From Clostridia bacterium (GTDB lineage: Bacteria > Bacillota > Clostridia > TANB77 > CAG-508), in assembly GCA_022798895.1 (NCBI GenBank), contig JAAWNJ010000014.1, positions 1 through 32,802 of the forward strand: a stretch of DNA of 32,802 nt. Reading direction: 5' to 3'. Positions 25,005 to 32,802 of this stretch are shown piece by piece. The notes below the pieces were generated by a model. The model saw nothing but the letters and a program-made list of their open reading frames with translations. It had not been told where the DNA came from and ran no database searches. The position numbers and the translations under genes are program-made. How positions within the stretch are numbered: the stretch's first letter is position 1; the number at the start of each line of letters is the position of its first letter.

Positions 25005-26054
25005 ATGAGCAAATTATTACATGTTGGTTTAGATGTAGGCTCTACCACTGTAAAAATCGTCATTATGGACGAAAATTTAAATGAGCTATATTCTGATTAT
25101 CAAAGACACTTTTCAGATACTAAAAATACAGTATGCAAAGTATTAGAAAATTTAGCTACTCAATATTCTGACCATGAATTTAGCATTGCTTTAACAGGTT
25201 CAGGAGCAATGAGTGCTGCCAAATTTTTAGATTTGCCTTTTATTCAAGAGGTAGTTTCTTGCAAACGTAGTGTTGAAAAATATATTCCTGAAACAGATGT
25301 AGTTATTGAACTTGGTGGAGAAGATGCTAAAATCATTTATTTTGATAAATCTATTGAGCAACGTATGAATGGAACTTGTGCAGGTGGCACAGGTGCTTTT
25401 ATCGATCAAATGGCTTCTTTACTACATACAGACCCTACAGGACTAAATGAACTTGCCAAAAATCATAAAATGCTTTACCCTATTGCTTCTCGTTGTGGTG
25501 TTTTTGCTAAAACGGATGTACAACCTCTTCTAAATGAGGGAGCTGCAAAAGAAGATATCGCTGCTTCCATTTTTCAAGCAGTTGTTAATCAAACCATTAG
25601 TGGGTTAGCTTGTGGCAGACCAATTCGTGGTAATGTTGCCTTTTTAGGTGGTCCTTTAAATTACTTATCTGAACTTCGTACTCGTTTTATTGAAACCTTG
25701 CATTTAACAGAAGAACAAATTATTATCCCAGCAGAAGCCCATTTGTTAGTTGCAAAGGGTGCTGCGCTTGATTCTATTTATTCTAGTCATCCAATTACAG
25801 TTGAAAAGTTAAGAGCAAAAATAGAGATGTTAAAAGTATCTCATGATGATACTTCACATCCTTTATCCCCTTTATTTTCTATTGATGCAGAATATCAAGA
25901 ATTTAAAGAAAGACATGATAAAGAAACTGTTAAAAAAGGAGATTTAAAATCTTATGAAGGTGACTGCTTTGTAGGAATTGACGCTGGTTCTACTACCACA
26001 AAGTTAGTAGTAATTGACCCAGACCGGTACTCTTCTTTATTCTCTCTATGGTAG
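25005..26054 (+). CDS. 2-hydroxyacyl-CoA dehydratase activase, N-terminal part (frameshifted)
   Basis: First 350 codons of a very large activase. It has an ASKHA (BadF/BadG/HgdC) ATPase domain: LLHVGLDVGSTTVKIVIMDE, the cluster cysteine motif NGTCAGGTGAFIDQMA and a second phosphate-binding start FVGIDAGSTTTKLVVIDP near its end. Such proteins use ATP to push an electron into 2-hydroxyacyl-CoA dehydratases or related enzymes in anaerobic amino-acid fermentation. The frame ends in a foreign tail (DRYSSLFSLW) because of one extra C near 26024-26025; removing it joins the frame to the ORF at 26014-29334. The true protein would be about 1,440 residues, the normal length for this family. It may be a real mutation or a sequencing error. 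Confidence 0.85.
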   Translation: MSKLLHVGLDVGSTTVKIVIMDENLNELYSDYQRHFSDTKNTVCKVLENLATQYSDHEFSIALTGSGAMSAAKFLDLPFIQEVVSCKRSVEKYIPETDVVIELGGEDAKIIYFDKSIEQRMNGTCAGGTGAFIDQMASLLHTDPTGLNELAKNHKMLYPIASRCGVFAKTDVQPLLNEGAAKEDIAASIFQAVVNQTISGLACGRPIRGNVAFLGGPLNYLSELRTRFIETLHLTEEQIIIPAEAHLLVAKGAALDSIYSSHPITVEKLRAKIEMLKVSHDDTSHPLSPLFSIDAEYQEFKERHDKETVKKGDLKSYEGDCFVGIDAGSTTTKLVVIDPDRYSSLFSLW

Positions 26055-29000
26055 CAATAAGGGAAATCCTTTACAAAGTGTTATTAATATGCTCAAAAAA
26101 TTATATAGCGAGAAACCTAAAAAAGCAGTTATCCGTTATAGCGGAGTTACAGGATATGGAGAAAAATTAATTCAGTCTGCCTTAAATGTAGATTTAAATG
26201 AAATTGAAACAATTGCCCACTATACTGCTGCAAAACAATTTATGCCTAATGTTACTAGTATTGTAGACATTGGTGGTCAAGATATGAAGTATATTCGTAT
26301 GAAAAAAGGTGCAATTGATAATATTATGCTAAATGAAGCTTGTTCTTCTGGTTGCGGTTCTTTTATTGAGACTTTTGCTAAGAGTTTAAATCTATCTATT
26401 GAAGAGTTTGTAAACTCTGCTTTAGAAGCTAGAAAACCAGTGGATTTAGGCTCTCGTTGTACAGTATTTATGAACTCTAAAATTAAACAAGCCCAAAAGG
26501 AAGGTTATAGCGTAGGAGATATTTCAGCAGGACTTTCTTATTCTGTTATTAAAAATGCAATTCAAAAGGTAATGAAGGTAAGAGACGTTAAGAGTTTAGG
26601 TGCACATATTGTGGTACAAGGTGGTACTTTCTATAATGATGCCGTTCTTCGAGCTTTTGAACTCATTGTAGGAAGAAATGTAGTAAGACCTGATATTGCA
26701 GGCTTAATGGGTGCTTATGGTGTTGCTTTACTTTCTAAAGAACAATATGAAGCAAATCTAGATATGGAATATGTATCAACACTTGCTGATTTAGAAAGCT
26801 TAGATAAATTAGAAATTAGTATTTCACATGTTCGTTGTAATGGTTGTGAAAATCATTGCTTATTAACCATTAACAAATTCAATAATGGTTCTCAATATAT
26901 TTCTGGTAACCGCTGTGAGAAGGGTGCTGGTGGTGTAGGGGAACACAAAGACTTACCAAATATTATGAAGTATAAATATGAAAGGCTATTTAGCTATACT
27001 CCTTTAGAAGAAAAAGATGCTCCTCGTGGAACTATTGGCATTCCTAGAGTATTAAATATGTATGAAGATTACCCTTTCTGGTTTACCTTCCTAACTAATC
27101 TAGGATTTCGTGTAATTCTATCAGAAAAGAGTAATCGTAAAACATATGAAAAAGGTATGGAAAGTATGCCTTCTGAGTCTGTTTGCTTCCCTGCTAAACT
27201 TTCTCATGGTCATATTATTGGCTTAATTAAACAAGGTGTTAAAACAATTTTTTATCCTTGTATGCCATATTCTAGAAAAGAATATGAAAAAGCAGATAAT
27301 CACTATAACTGCCCTATCGTTATTTCCTATTCTGAAGTACTAAAAAACAATGTGGAAGAAATAAAAGAAAAAGATATCAAGTTCTTAAATCCATTTCTGC
27401 CTTTTGAACCAAAGACTTTAACTGAAACAATTTTAGAATTGCCTGAATTTGAAGAATATCATTTTACCAAAAAGGAATTACTTGAGGCTAGCCAAAAAGC
27501 GGAAGCAGAATATCAAAACTTTAAAGAAGATATCCGTAAAAAAGGACAAGAAGTTTTAGATTACATAGAAAAAACAAATAGCAAAGGTATTGTCTTAGCG
27601 GGTCGTCCTTATCATACAGACCCTGAAGTAAATCATGGTATTGATACCTTAATTACAAGTCTTGGGCTTTGCGTTTTGACAGAAGATTCTATTTCTAACT
27701 TGTCACAAGTTAAACGTCCTATTCGTGTAGTAGATCAATGGGTATATCATGCAAGACTATATGCTGCAGCTGATTTTGTAGGCAAACATCCTGCTTTAGA
27801 ATTAGTTCAACTAAATTCTTTTGGTTGTGGAGTAGATGCTGTTACAACTGACCAAGTGGAAGAAATACTAAATAGTTTTGGTAAGATGTATACTTTAATT
27901 AAAATAGACGAGATTAATAACTTAGGAGCTGTTCGTATTCGTATTCGTTCCTTACTTGCTAGTATGAAAAAACGTGAGATAAATCAAGAATTAAAACAGG
28001 GCGATGGAAATTATGAGCAACATAAAGAAACCTTTACAAAAGAAATGAAAAAAGACTATACTATCCTAATTCCACAAATGGCTCCTATTCATTTTGATTT
28101 AATTGAAGCTGCCATGTCTTCTTCTGGATATCATGTAGAATTACTAAGAGAATGCACTCCACATACTGTAGAAACAGGACTAAAATATGTAAATAATGAT
28201 GCTTGTTACCCATCTATTTTAACTACTGGTCAAATGATAGAAGCATTAGAATCTGGAAAATATGACTTGAATAAAACTGCTTTAATTATGTCACAAACAG
28301 GTGGTGGTTGTAGAGCTACTAACTATATTGGATTTATTCGTAAGGCATTAAAAGATGCTGGCTTTCCTAATATACCAGTTATTTCTTTCAATGTGGTGGG
28401 TATGGAAAAAATGCCTGGATTTAAACTTACCATCCCTTTAATTGAAAGATTGCTAAAAGTACTAGTTTATGCAGATTTATTGCAGAAAATGCTTACGAAA
28501 AATAGGGCATATGAAGTGCATAAAAGTGAAACTCAAGCTCTATTTGATGGCTGGATGATAAAGTGTAAAAAGTTAATTGAGAAATCTACTTTGAAAGAAT
28601 TTAAAGCTAGTATATACGAAATTGTAAATGATTTTGAAAAAATAGAGTTAGATACATCTGTAGAAAAGCCTAAAGTTGGTATTGTGGGAGAAGTTTTAAT
28701 TAAATATCATCCTTTTGGTAACAATTTTGTAGCTGATAAATTAGAAGAAGAAGGCGCAGAAGTAATCTTACCTGATTTTATGGGATTTATTAAATTTATT
28801 GCTACCCATAAAATTACTTTTAATCAATTAATTAAGACAAATAAGATGTCATCTAAGCTATTTAAAGCAGCCATTAAATTAATTGATATTTTAGAAAAAG
28901 ATGTTATTATTGCACTTAAAACTTCTAAAAAAGGCTATTTATTACCTTGTAATATTTTTGAACTAGAAACTAAGGTAAAAGATGTATTATCTATTGGTAA

Positions 29001-29334
29001 CCAAACTGGTGAGGGCTGGTTCTTAACAGCTGAAATGATAGAATATATTGAACATGGTATTCCAAATATCGTCTGTGTACAACCTTTTGCTTGTTTGCCA
29101 AACCATGTTGTGGGAAAAGGTGTTATTAAAACCATTCGCTCTTTATATCCAGAAGCCAACATTTCTCCTATTGATTATGACCCTGGTGCTAGTGAAGCTA
29201 ACCAGACAAACAGAATTAAGTTATTAATGACTGTTGCAAAAGATAACCTAGCTAAACAACAAAAGGAAAGAAAGGCCTTGGAGAAAGAAAATGCAGAAAT
29301 AACATCTGACAAAAAAGAAAAGGTTGAAAAATAA
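26014..29334 (+). CDS. 2-hydroxyacyl-CoA dehydratase activase, main part (frameshifted)
   Basis: The remaining roughly 1,100 codons. The second ASKHA domain continues (VIRYSGVTGYGEKLIQSAL, IVDIGGQDMKYIRMKKGAID, cluster motif EACSSGCGSFIETFAKSL). Then comes the DUF2229/DUF2229-like and CoA-dehydratase-subunit-like region, with VRCNGCENHCLLTINKFNNG and CEKGAGG cysteines, PCMPYSRKE, NSFGCGVDAVTTDQV and SQTGGGCRATNYIGFIRKAL. The track start at 26014 is a TTG in the slipped frame and is not a natural start: the true first residues in this frame are about TGTLLYSLYG. The lysine-rich C-terminal tail (about the last 25 residues) is typical. A terminator follows at 29350. Not proven to be expressed as one protein. 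Confidence 0.88.
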   Translation: MTQTGTLLYSLYGSNKGNPLQSVINMLKKLYSEKPKKAVIRYSGVTGYGEKLIQSALNVDLNEIETIAHYTAAKQFMPNVTSIVDIGGQDMKYIRMKKGAIDNIMLNEACSSGCGSFIETFAKSLNLSIEEFVNSALEARKPVDLGSRCTVFMNSKIKQAQKEGYSVGDISAGLSYSVIKNAIQKVMKVRDVKSLGAHIVVQGGTFYNDAVLRAFELIVGRNVVRPDIAGLMGAYGVALLSKEQYEANLDMEYVSTLADLESLDKLEISISHVRCNGCENHCLLTINKFNNGSQYISGNRCEKGAGGVGEHKDLPNIMKYKYERLFSYTPLEEKDAPRGTIGIPRVLNMYEDYPFWFTFLTNLGFRVILSEKSNRKTYEKGMESMPSESVCFPAKLSHGHIIGLIKQGVKTIFYPCMPYSRKEYEKADNHYNCPIVISYSEVLKNNVEEIKEKDIKFLNPFLPFEPKTLTETILELPEFEEYHFTKKELLEASQKAEAEYQNFKEDIRKKGQEVLDYIEKTNSKGIVLAGRPYHTDPEVNHGIDTLITSLGLCVLTEDSISNLSQVKRPIRVVDQWVYHARLYAAADFVGKHPALELVQLNSFGCGVDAVTTDQVEEILNSFGKMYTLIKIDEINNLGAVRIRIRSLLASMKKREINQELKQGDGNYEQHKETFTKEMKKDYTILIPQMAPIHFDLIEAAMSSSGYHVELLRECTPHTVETGLKYVNNDACYPSILTTGQMIEALESGKYDLNKTALIMSQTGGGCRATNYIGFIRKALKDAGFPNIPVISFNVVGMEKMPGFKLTIPLIERLLKVLVYADLLQKMLTKNRAYEVHKSETQALFDGWMIKCKKLIEKSTLKEFKASIYEIVNDFEKIELDTSVEKPKVGIVGEVLIKYHPFGNNFVADKLEEEGAEVILPDFMGFIKFIATHKITFNQLIKTNKMSSKLFKAAIKLIDILEKDVIIALKTSKKGYLLPCNIFELETKVKDVLSIGNQTGEGWFLTAEMIEYIEHGIPNIVCVQPFACLPNHVVGKGVIKTIRSLYPEANISPIDYDPGASEANQTNRIKLLMTVAKDNLAKQQKERKALEKENAEITSDKKEKVEK

Positions 29335-29349
29335 TAAATATACTAAAAT

Positions 29350-29381
29350 AGCCATTTCTTCGATTAAAGAAATGGCTTTTG
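29350..29381 (+). terminator. Terminator of the activase gene
   Basis: AGCCATTTCTT/AAGAAATGGCT with a 6-base loop and TTTT after it. Confidence 0.75.
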
Positions 29382-29447: not shown

Positions 29448-29720
29448 TTATACTAATTTTTTTACCTCTTCTATTTCAACTCCATTTTGTGTTATTCTTC
29501 CCTGTATTGAAATAAAGTTACCTTGTTGCAAATTTCGATAAATCCAATCTGCTATTTCGTCATAGGCATATCCTCTTACTATTTGTCCTTTTTCTATTTC
29601 TAAATCTAAAAGAACAATTGATGTATGCTTTTTACTTAAACTTTTTGTATTGGAGTTATATATAAACTTAAAATCTATTTTATTTTTGATAGTTCCACTT
29701 AAAAAACATAAATTTATCAT
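29448..29720 (-). CDS. Small OB-fold (SSB/PriB-like) protein downstream of the DGR template
   Basis: A 90-residue protein that fits one OB-fold: INLCFLSGTIKNKIDFKFIY, then SIVLLDLEIEKGQIVRGYAY, helix DEIADWIYRNLQQG, and NFISIQGRITQNGVEIEEV. The alternating strands with a central helix and the G-x-I/L-x-x-x-I-x-F start are like single-stranded DNA-binding proteins. It is the last same-strand gene after the DGR target, accessory gene, RT and TR, starting about 250 bases beyond the TR. It may be part of the DGR as a single-strand or cDNA-binding helper. The RBS is a GGAAAGG-like box 5 to 10 bases upstream. The intervening stretch 29721-29970 shows no other gene. Role inferred from context. Confidence 0.6.
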   Translation of the reverse strand: MINLCFLSGTIKNKIDFKFIYNSNTKSLSKKHTSIVLLDLEIEKGQIVRGYAYDEIADWIYRNLQQGNFISIQGRITQNGVEIEEVKKLV

Positions 29721-29970
29721 AGTTTTACCTTTCCTCTATACTATAGCTTAATCTTTCTATTTTCTTCATCTATCTAATTTATCTTCTAAAATTAAAGCAT
29801 AAAATTTATATATTCTATTTTAAAATTAAAATCTACTAATATAAATTTCATTGATACCTATTTACCTAAAAAGTTTTATCAAACTTTCTTTGGAGGGAAT
29901 AAATCTCTTTAATACTAATACTTATCATGGAATATATTCCTTAAAATATATTATCTAGACTTAGCATTAG

Positions 29971-30110
29971 AGTGGACGGAAGGAATTGTTGGCATTGTTG
30001 TTGGTCGTAGTATTGTTGTTGCGATTAGACGTAGTGTTATTGCTGTTGTTGTAATTACCTCCCCTATTAACACAAGGGTTACTATTGCTACTATTCGTGT
30101 TAGTAGAATT
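29971..30110 (-). repeat. DGR template repeat (TR)
   Basis: 140 bp that aligns without gaps to 31981-32120. On the minus strand it reads as an Asn-rich sequence: 20 AAT or AAC codons can be counted in the target's frame (for example NRNNNTTTNNNANNSFRP). Adenine-rich AAY codons are the substrate of adenine mutagenesis in DGRs. The 3' end carries TTCCTTCCGTCCACT, identical in both repeats, as expected for the initiation-of-homology side. It begins 18 bases after the RT stop codon and is not itself a protein-coding gene. Confidence 0.95.
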
Positions 30111-30127
30111 TGATTTATCCCCATTTT

Positions 30128-31186
30128 TTATGGTATATAAAATAACTTTTGATTTAAATTATTTGTATCTGCTATCTTTATATATCCCATATGTCCACAT
30201 AAATACCTTTTGGCGTCTTTACTGCTCATCTTTCCTCTTTTTATATTGTATTCCATTTCTCTTATTTTCTTCTTTAGCTTTCTTTTTCCTCTATCTCGTA
30301 TCTTTAATCTATATTCATTAATTTTATAGCCACAAAAGTTAATCCCTTGTTTACTTTTAAAAATTTGTGTTTTTTCATTTAATTCTAGTTCTAAATTTTC
30401 TTCCAAAAACTCCTTTATTTTTCCTAAACACATTTTGGCTTCTTGTTTGTTTTTTACAAATAAGATAGAATCATCTAAATAGCGAAAATAGTATCTAATC
30501 CTTAACTCATGTTTTATATATTGATCTAACTCATTTAAATAAATATTGGCAAATAACTGTGAAGTATAATTTCCTATTGGTAATCCCTTTCTCTTTCTAT
30601 TTAACTCTTTTTTATTTAACATTGTTTGTTTTTCTTCTTGTGTACAATTAGAATAAATAATCTCTTGTAAAAGCCATAATACTTTCTTATCAGTTATCTT
30701 TCTTTTTAAAATATGAAATAAAATATCTTTATCAATATGATCAAAATATTTTCTAATATCCATTTTTAAAACATAGTATTCTTTCCAAGTATTTTTACAA
30801 TGTTTCATTGCTTTTTGCACATCTAAAGCTGCCTTGTGCATTCCTCTATTTTGAATGCAAGCATAAGTATGATAAATGAGACTTTTTTCAAAATATTCTT
30901 TTAAGAAATTGTCTACGACAAACCTATGCACAATTCTATCTATGTACCTACTTTTCTCTATTCTTCGTAATTTTGGTTCTGTTACATAAAATGTAGTATA
31001 TCCGCCATGTCTATATGTGCCAATTTTTAATCTCTCATATAACCACCAAATATATTCTTCTTGCTTTAGATTAAATAAAATTACTTCTTCTCGATAGCCT
31101 TTTCCTTTTCTACTTAACAAATGAGCTTTCATTAGATTTTCATAAGTTAATTTCTTATCAAACTCATTTCTTATCGTTTTTGGCAT
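30128..31186 (-). CDS. Diversity-generating retroelement reverse transcriptase
   Basis: A 352-residue RT. Motifs in order: RIEKSRYIDRIVHRFVVDNF (RT motif 2 region), YYVLKMDIRKYFDHID (catalytic Asp of motif A), GLPIGNYTSQLFANIYLNEL (motif 4 with the DGR hallmark IGNxxSQ in place of QG), and YFRYLDDSILFV (catalytic YLDD). The C-terminal GKRKLKKKIREMEYNIKRGK is basic, as in the thumb of other DGR RTs. It copies the TR RNA with errors at adenines; the cDNA then replaces the VR. The start at 31186 overlaps the end of the accessory gene by 23 bases, with GGAGGA about 10 bases upstream inside that gene, so translation is probably coupled. Confidence 0.96.
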   Translation of the reverse strand: MPKTIRNEFDKKLTYENLMKAHLLSRKGKGYREEVILFNLKQEEYIWWLYERLKIGTYRHGGYTTFYVTEPKLRRIEKSRYIDRIVHRFVVDNFLKEYFEKSLIYHTYACIQNRGMHKAALDVQKAMKHCKNTWKEYYVLKMDIRKYFDHIDKDILFHILKRKITDKKVLWLLQEIIYSNCTQEEKQTMLNKKELNRKRKGLPIGNYTSQLFANIYLNELDQYIKHELRIRYYFRYLDDSILFVKNKQEAKMCLGKIKEFLEENLELELNEKTQIFKSKQGINFCGYKINEYRLKIRDRGKRKLKKKIREMEYNIKRGKMSSKDAKRYLCGHMGYIKIADTNNLNQKLFYIP

Positions 31187-31658
31187 AGTATTTAATTAGT
31201 CCTCCTAATATTTTTCCTATTTCTGTTATTTTACTTATTGCTATTTGAAATTTCTTCTCATCTATCCATTTATTCTTTAACATAATCCTTAAATAAATTC
31301 TCTGGCAATTTAGACTTACATCTATCTTATTCAAATAATTCATTTTATTTTTTTCTTTCACTTTCGGTATATATAGAGTATTTTCTAGCATCTCATACAT
31401 GGATACTTTATATTCATTACAATATACAATATATGCTACATCTAGCCTTGCCAACTTTTCCAAATAATATTCTATTCTTGTTTCTGGAATTCCTATTTTA
31501 CAAACTTCCTTTTTGAAACAAATACATTTTAGCCCTAGTTGTTTATTCAAAAAAACTGCATCTTTCCCTGTTGCTACATAAAATGGACCTAACTTTACAA
31601 ATACTATTTTTTCTTTATCTTTTTCCTTTAAAATTTCTAACATATTACTAAAACTCAT
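31164..31658 (-). CDS. DGR accessory protein: MutS-domain-I-like plus Avd-like helical bundle
   Basis: A 164-residue protein in two parts. Residues about 17-85 (IVFVKLGPFYVATGKDAVFL, GIPETRIEYYLEKLARLD) resemble the N-terminal mismatch-recognition domain I of MutS, whose pattern is GxFYE...DA...GIP...YL.KL. Residues about 105-160 (YLNKIDVSLNCQRIYLRIML, KITEIGKILGGLIKYY) form helices like the Avd four-helix bundle. MutS-like (MSL) and Avd proteins are known DGR accessories: Avd binds the RT and the TR RNA. The fusion suggests both functions in one protein. It is the gene before the RT and overlaps it. Confidence 0.8.
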   Translation of the reverse strand: MSFSNMLEILKEKDKEKIVFVKLGPFYVATGKDAVFLNKQLGLKCICFKKEVCKIGIPETRIEYYLEKLARLDVAYIVYCNEYKVSMYEMLENTLYIPKVKEKNKMNYLNKIDVSLNCQRIYLRIMLKNKWIDEKKFQIAISKITEIGKILGGLIKYYAKNDKK

Positions 31659-31958: not shown

Positions 31959-32802
31959 CTAACTTAACTTCAAAAACAAAAGTGGACGGAAGGAATAGCC
32001 GGCATTGCTGTAGGTCGTAGTGTCGTAGTAGCGACCAGACGTAGTGCTACCGCCGCCGCTGTAATAACCTCCCCTAGTAACACAAGGGCTACTAGAGCTA
32101 CTACTCGTGCGAGTGGAATGCTCTGTGCTCCACTCTATGCAATTAGAAGCCATATCATGGATATTACATACCTTATCTCCTGCTTTTCCTGTATTTAATT
32201 TGCTTGAATTTACTGATGTCTTGTTGGCATAATTACTGTTTCCACTGTATTTTTGTATGAATACTATTGCTGTATCCCAGCTATAACTATTTATCAAATC
32301 ACTTTCTACATAATTACTACTATACATTTCTCTTGCTTGTGTTGCTGCATTTGGTTGCGTTATATCTACCCATGCCACTTTATTTACTTGTGAATCTACT
32401 TTTCCATCACTTCCTTGACTTGCTTCATATCTTCCTAGGTAGTATCCACCGTTAGTCTTTGTCTTTGCGACAAAATCTCCTAGATTTTTAGCAGCGGTAT
32501 TTCCTGAATTACTAGTTAATTCTTGATAATAATTTGATATTGTTACTACTTGTGTATAATTATCTGCATTTTGCTGCAATGTTGGTGTTCCATTAGTAGT
32601 GTCAAATGTATATCTTCCTAAAGTGACAGTTGTTGTACTTCCATCTTTATTTTTTATCTCTCCTACTGGTATCCACACAAATTGATTTCCTTCTTCATCT
32701 TCTATTACGATTCCATCTTGTACTGCAGGCATTCCATCTCCATTATATGTGTATTCTACATTTCCTGTACCTCCATTTGGTACTACTTTAAAGCCTCCTG
32801 GA
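31959..32802 (-). CDS. DGR target protein with FGE/sulfatase-type C-type-lectin fold (5' end outside window)
   Basis: A frame open to the window edge; the ATG at 32732 in the track is internal, since the frame continues upstream (PGGFKVVPNGGTGN...). The visible part has the formylglycine-generating-enzyme (SUMF1) fold: DGIVIEDEEGNQFVWIPVGE, GGYYLGRYEAS, and the C-terminal CVTRGG...GYSFRPLLFL ending. This fold is the standard scaffold for DGR variable regions. Residues in the last 50 or so (HSTRTSSSSSSPCVTRGGYY onward) come from the VR. Similar targets in gut Clostridia begin with a prepilin-type leader and are displayed at the cell surface; the leader here lies outside the window. The target is then likely an adhesin or receptor with a hypervariable binding face. 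Confidence 0.93.
   Translation of the reverse strand, partial: PGGFKVVPNGGTGNVEYTYNGDGMPAVQDGIVIEDEEGNQFVWIPVGEIKNKDGSTTTVTLGRYTFDTTNGTPTLQQNADNYTQVVTISNYYQELTSNSGNTAAKNLGDFVAKTKTNGGYYLGRYEASQGSDGKVDSQVNKVAWVDITQPNAATQAREMYSSNYVESDLINSYSWDTAIVFIQKYSGNSNYANKTSVNSSKLNTGKAGDKVCNIHDMASNCIEWSTEHSTRTSSSSSSPCVTRGGYYSGGGSTTSGRYYDTTTYSNAGYSFRPLLFLKLS
31981..32120 (-). repeat. DGR variable repeat (VR)
   Basis: 140 bp at the 3' end of the target gene. Compared with the TR base by base it has 28 mismatches; 26 lie at adenines of the TR coding strand and 2 are T to C changes at third codon positions. Of 20 template Asn codons, 19 differ in the VR and encode mostly S, G, Y, T, R, D and H. The repeat ends 19 bases before the end of the stop codon region, as is usual for DGRs. 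Confidence 0.96.

Follow-up and report, generated by a model that had tools for sequence, protein, structure and literature searches.

The window, that is, the whole stretch of 32,802 nucleotides analyzed here, is contig C48 of a Clostridia genome of 1.93 Mb in 135 contigs. Its minus strand carries a diversity-generating retroelement (DGR) cassette in the order target gene with variable repeat (VR), MSL-Avd ORF, reverse transcriptase (RT), template repeat (TR), a small gene for an OB-fold protein (hereafter, the OB gene) and terminator (Table 1).

Table 1. Coordinates of the DGR cassette features within the window
Feature	Position	Strand	Basis or remark
Target protein ORF, VR at 3' end	31959..32732	-	start uncertain, contig ends at 32802
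Variable repeat (VR)	31981..32119	-	TR/VR comparison
Accessory ORF, MutS domain I (MSL) fused to bAvd	31164..31658	-	PF01624 3.9e-10, PF22296 8.5e-12
DGR reverse transcriptase, 352 aa	30128..31186	-	Pfam RVT_1 6e-21, PHROG reverse transcriptase 9e-107
Template repeat (TR), Asn(AAY)-rich, directly past RT stop	29971..30109	-	TR/VR comparison
Shine-Dalgarno-like AGAGGAAAGG, ~7 nt 5' of OB gene	29728..29737	-	read from sequence
OB gene, SSB/PriB-like accessory, 90 aa, last in DGR cassette	29448..29720	-	ORF and family/fold data
Terminator-like hairpin between OB gene and convergent gene 26014-29334	29350..29377	.	12 pairs minus strand, 11 plus strand

The cassette and its terminal gene

TR and VR share 81% identity over 139 nt, and 25 of their 27 differences fall at TR adenines. 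With these adenine-specific differences and a DGR-type RT beside TR and Avd, the cassette can be classified as a DGR. A remote VR in the same genome (G000:C129:8006-8144, L253) has 23 mismatches to the window TR, 22 of which are again TR adenines; hence, the element looks recently active and multi-target. Judging only from the adenine-specific TR/VR differences, from which we infer retrohoming, the DGR is apparently active. Two more remote VRs were assigned to the window TR, at C9:4228-4364 (L255) and C78:20661-20802 (L256), with a less clear adenine bias. The same genome also encodes a second, distant DGR-type RT of 44% identity (G000:C17:4433-5422, L122), accompanied by Avd and lacking an OB gene.

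MSL and Avd are separate genes in relatives but one ORF in the window, probably as a result of a deletion fusion. None of the 55 other MSL frames examined had an Avd match, unlike the fused ORF of the window. The idea, suggested by tblastn spans, of an Avd-like domain at the end of MSL proteins was dropped, since most separate MSL tails have a Cys-pair segment in its place. The window MSL retains the Phe, and not the Glu, of the MutS FxE motif. Beyond the terminator, the ORFs at 25005-26054 and 26014-29334 overlap in different frames and appear to be two parts of a single activase/dehydratase-type protein split by a frameshift.

The preliminary description had placed a 90-residue SSB/PriB-like protein on the strand of the TR as the last element of the cassette, and this arrangement was confirmed. 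The OB gene starts with ATG and lies 250 nt 3' of the TR on the same strand. A hairpin follows it, while no terminator hairpin was predicted on the minus strand in the interval from the TR to the OB gene; thus, the OB gene closes the cassette. Homologues occur in 89 of the 292 genomes from the same GTDB family, and dN/dS was below 1 in all 41 homologue pairs compared (60-97% amino acid identity; mostly 0.06-0.5, maximum 0.82). The ORF is therefore not a chance one, and these ratios point to purifying selection.

Fold and family of the OB protein

Taken alone, the window protein gave only PF01336 (OB-fold) at E 0.038 and no SSB match in a Pfam search, as well as chance matches only in a phmmer search of the PDB. 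Since these single-sequence searches yielded no significant match, the case for the fold rests on the family profile and an AlphaFold2 model. The SSB family of Pfam (PF00436) was matched individually by 53 of the 82 members of the family alignment A1, the best at E 1.5e-7, and the general OB family PF01336 by 26. The AlphaFold2 model, built with the same 82-sequence alignment, reached a pLDDT of 88.6 and displayed the order of strands and helix typical of OB folds, and its best 50 Foldseek matches in the PDB were SSBs (SsbA, SsbB and others) or PriB, with a probability of 1.00 and TMq of 0.67-0.80. In a profile-profile alignment against 26 SSB-type proteins, the family was colinear across the whole domain (probability 97.9). 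Residues N3, G9, F19, A57, D58 and G74 were invariant or nearly so in A1. Structure prediction had been proposed in the preliminary description as the check that could expose a fold other than OB; instead, the model bears the original assignment out, and the protein is predicted to have an OB fold of the SSB/PriB type. It did not match the bAvd, HRDC or MutS_I models, and the 25 families listed for A1 included none of the Avd, HRDC and MSL domain families.

The proteins are only mildly basic, a point against the ssDNA-binding role proposed below, with a median net charge of +2 and a pI above 8 in 57% of the 82 members. None of the 107 family hits carries the acidic C-terminal tip of SSBs; the three best SSBs of the window's own genome end in DDLPF. 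By its sequence, this is a minimal, single-OB-domain protein of the SSB/PriB type devoid of the acidic C-terminal tail that housekeeping SSB has. PriB, too, is known to lack an SSB tail. This trait, together with the presence of PriB among the best fold matches, would suit a PriB-like replication adaptor, which would couple the cDNA-target intermediate to the host replication restart or lagging-strand machinery and open the VR strand. DGR efficiency was indeed found to vary with replication direction (PMC12875486). However, SSBs score slightly above PriB in the fold search, and we consider such an adaptor improbable.

Linkage of the OB gene to DGRs

In an RT tree, the OB carriers formed one clade (support 0.94), but the loci in it had been chosen mostly by OB hits, and for this reason we quote prevalence from the RT side. 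In the 292 genomes of the family, 75 RT hits had an identity of 57% or more to the window RT. For 64 of them, a single-sequence search placed an OB gene no more than 3 kb away, usually some 320-620 nt 3' of the RT on the same strand, an interval that corresponds to the space of the TR. HMM searches added three RTs with an OB gene (G090:C5, L128; G161:C28, L131; G230:C27, L257). Once five RTs running into a contig end were left out, the OB gene was near 67 of the 70 clade RTs with downstream sequence, the exceptions being one RT in G271 (L129) and two in G171 (L126, L127). One genome (G253) has three cassettes of this kind, each with its own OB copy, and a few degenerate RT matches below 57% identity also adjoin an OB gene.

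The count from the OB side gave a similar picture. Out of 119 OB genes in the loci retrieved, 80 lie next to a substantial RT, 15 to an RT remnant, six only to MSL or Avd and one only to TR/VR, with 13 more at contig edges and four solo. Hence, 102 of the 106 copies with informative context adjoin a DGR part. The genomic-context survey suggested in the preliminary description thus found the gene recurring with DGRs, and not mostly away from them.

This association is kept through rearrangement. At three loci (L096, L111, L147), the OB gene remains with the DGR though the TR is elsewhere, and at another (L102), it sits between target and Avd. MSL and OB genes form a codirectional block opposite the RT operon at six loci (L097, L151, L152, L154, L218, L219), an arrangement which suggests that the two act or move together. 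The outer flank beyond the OB gene varies, with 38 flank groups among 59 loci. With locus L058 left out, OB distances track RT distances (r 0.61, p 0.0005, n=54), a correlation that could come partly from host phylogeny. The first test, with L058 included, gave no correlation; this locus was suspected of hiding it, since the sole long RT match there belongs to a second RT of distant similarity. At L058 (1117-3993, G267:C24), the DGR RT gene is split near residue 240 by an insert encoding this second RT (22% identity), and the insert is probably a group II intron.

RT, MSL and OB also occur together in two genomes of a second family within the order. The RTs of these genomes fall inside the group formed by the main family's RTs, and the linkage has been kept through transfer to this second family. 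Being kept through rearrangement, flank change and such a transfer, the linkage is more than the inheritance of one locus. These observations, along with the 67 of 70 and 102 of 106 counts, make it unlikely that the OB gene is a passenger, i.e., an SSB-like gene merely travelling beside DGRs with an unrelated function. Although the four solo copies and several RT-less ones are intact, as a passenger might be, we regard this explanation as the least credible of those considered, with a very small chance of being correct.

Several loci (L050, L054, L060, L065, L073, L079, L138) have no usable RT and retain MSL, OB or both, in some cases along with TR and VR; for some of these cassettes, the whole genome gave no RT match at the E 1e-30 limit. 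They may be relics, targets served in trans, or signs of an RT-independent role. In several cases, the OB copy has stayed intact despite the loss of the RT, with a dN/dS of ~0.36 between two such copies; therefore, either another role or lagging decay is possible.

Outside this RT clade, no OB gene accompanied the clade of 51-54% RT identity (VR-Avd-RT-TR, no convincing MSL), nor was one found beside the RTs of the group below 47% identity, many of which show MSL-Avd-RT. No OB homologue was found outside the order at E <= 1e-9 in a 399-genome sample of the phylum, and the viral contigs and phage records searched contained no relative. Profile hits outside the order in the class sample (E 1e-5 to 1e-7) were rejected as ordinary SSBs, most being frames of 135-175 aa with a DDLPF-type end. 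As it occurs only in a single RT clade, within one Clostridia family and the two genomes of the second, the OB gene can be regarded as a lineage-specific accessory.

Possible role and relation to known systems

We favor, with somewhat better than even confidence, a scenario in which the OB gene is a dedicated accessory of this DGR clade, whose product binds the single-stranded intermediate of retrohoming and displaces host SSB. The protein probably acts on the ssDNA copy through which the target gene is rewritten. The likeliest ligand in mutagenic retrohoming would be either the adenine-mutagenised cDNA freed from the TR RNA or a transiently single-stranded VR strand, which the protein would hold in an unfolded state, ready for annealing. 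The SSB tail is a docking site for ExoI. With host SSB displaced by the tail-less protein, ExoI and other tail-docking enzymes would not be recruited.

Work on the reconstituted BPP-1 DGR showed that ExoI has a non-catalytic inhibitory effect on retrohoming, that cDNA-TR RNA hybrids accumulate upon its removal, and that a lagging-strand-replicated target is favored (PMC12875486). Four core components suffice for this DGR to function in E. coli (PMC12875486), and sister clades possess the RT-Avd core without an OB gene; thus, the OB protein is not generally required for DGRs. It is tempting to extend this scenario and to suppose that the clade's own tail-less SSB takes the place of host SSB on the mutagenic cDNA or on the target strand, keeps away ExoI and other tail-docking enzymes and, together with MSL, supplements the RT-Avd core as a retrohoming module; we put this forward tentatively, as a possibility rather short of an even chance.

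RNA binding is equally compatible with the predicted structure as binding to ssDNA. The protein might be an RNP chaperone: instead of coating ssDNA, it would attach to the structured TR RNA or to the complex of RT, Avd and MSL and help to prime the cDNA. The OB gene usually stands directly after the TR in the same orientation and could be transcribed together with it, and OB folds also bind RNA, the general OB family being one that members of A1 match. The nearest relatives, however, are the ssDNA-binding SSB and PriB, and the OB gene is sometimes off the TR or on the opposite strand, so cis coupling to the TR RNA is not needed. Overall, a chaperone of this kind seems unlikely to us, though it is the strongest of the alternatives to binding of the single-stranded retrohoming intermediate.

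The process by which DGR cDNA is integrated into the VR has been called mysterious (PMC12875486). A conserved, clade-specific SSB-like gene points to the single-stranded intermediate, which, if our preferred scenario is right, would be the step that earns a protein of its own. A tail-less SSB set against ExoI and host SSB offers a concrete handle, testable in the E. coli reconstitution, and the OB protein could improve DGR-based directed evolution tools.

Among known systems, the DGRs with Avd and MSL (Wu et al. 2018, as cited in PMC10053308) have the same RT, TR, VR, adenine-specific differences, bAvd and MutS-domain-I MSL, to which the window clade adds the conserved SSB/PriB-like gene. Avd, HRDC and MSL are the DGR accessory proteins named in PMC10053308; through its citation of Wu et al. 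2018, we learn that one further DGR-linked protein, with no Pfam/CDD match, was suggested there. The OB protein is possibly that protein, in which case the association, as far as this citation conveys it, could already be on record with the fold not given. Among the papers reached by a full-text literature search for DGRs with an OB-fold or SSB protein, none described such a component. If our reading holds, this would be, to our knowledge, the first SSB-type protein established as a DGR component.

With the bacterial SSB family (PF00436; B. subtilis SsbA/SsbB, C. burnetii SSB), the OB protein shares a single SSB-type OB domain, a full-length profile match and conservation at the aligned positions N3, G9, A57-D58 and G74. 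Unlike SSBs, it has only ~84-90 aa, lacks a linker and an acidic DDDLPF-type tip and is encoded beside DGR RTs; its sequence identity to the fold matches is only 11-20%. PriB (primosomal replication protein N) is likewise small and tail-less, with a similar size and fold (TMq 0.67-0.73), but the OB gene occurs in a DGR and not in the usual PriB context, and its sequence is not specifically PriB-like. Finally, Avd of the BPP-1 DGR and the HRDC accessory of Treponema DGRs are also small DGR-linked proteins; unlike the OB protein, neither has an OB fold, Avd being a helical bundle and HRDC a helicase-associated domain. The OB gene co-occurs with Avd and is an addition to it rather than a replacement.
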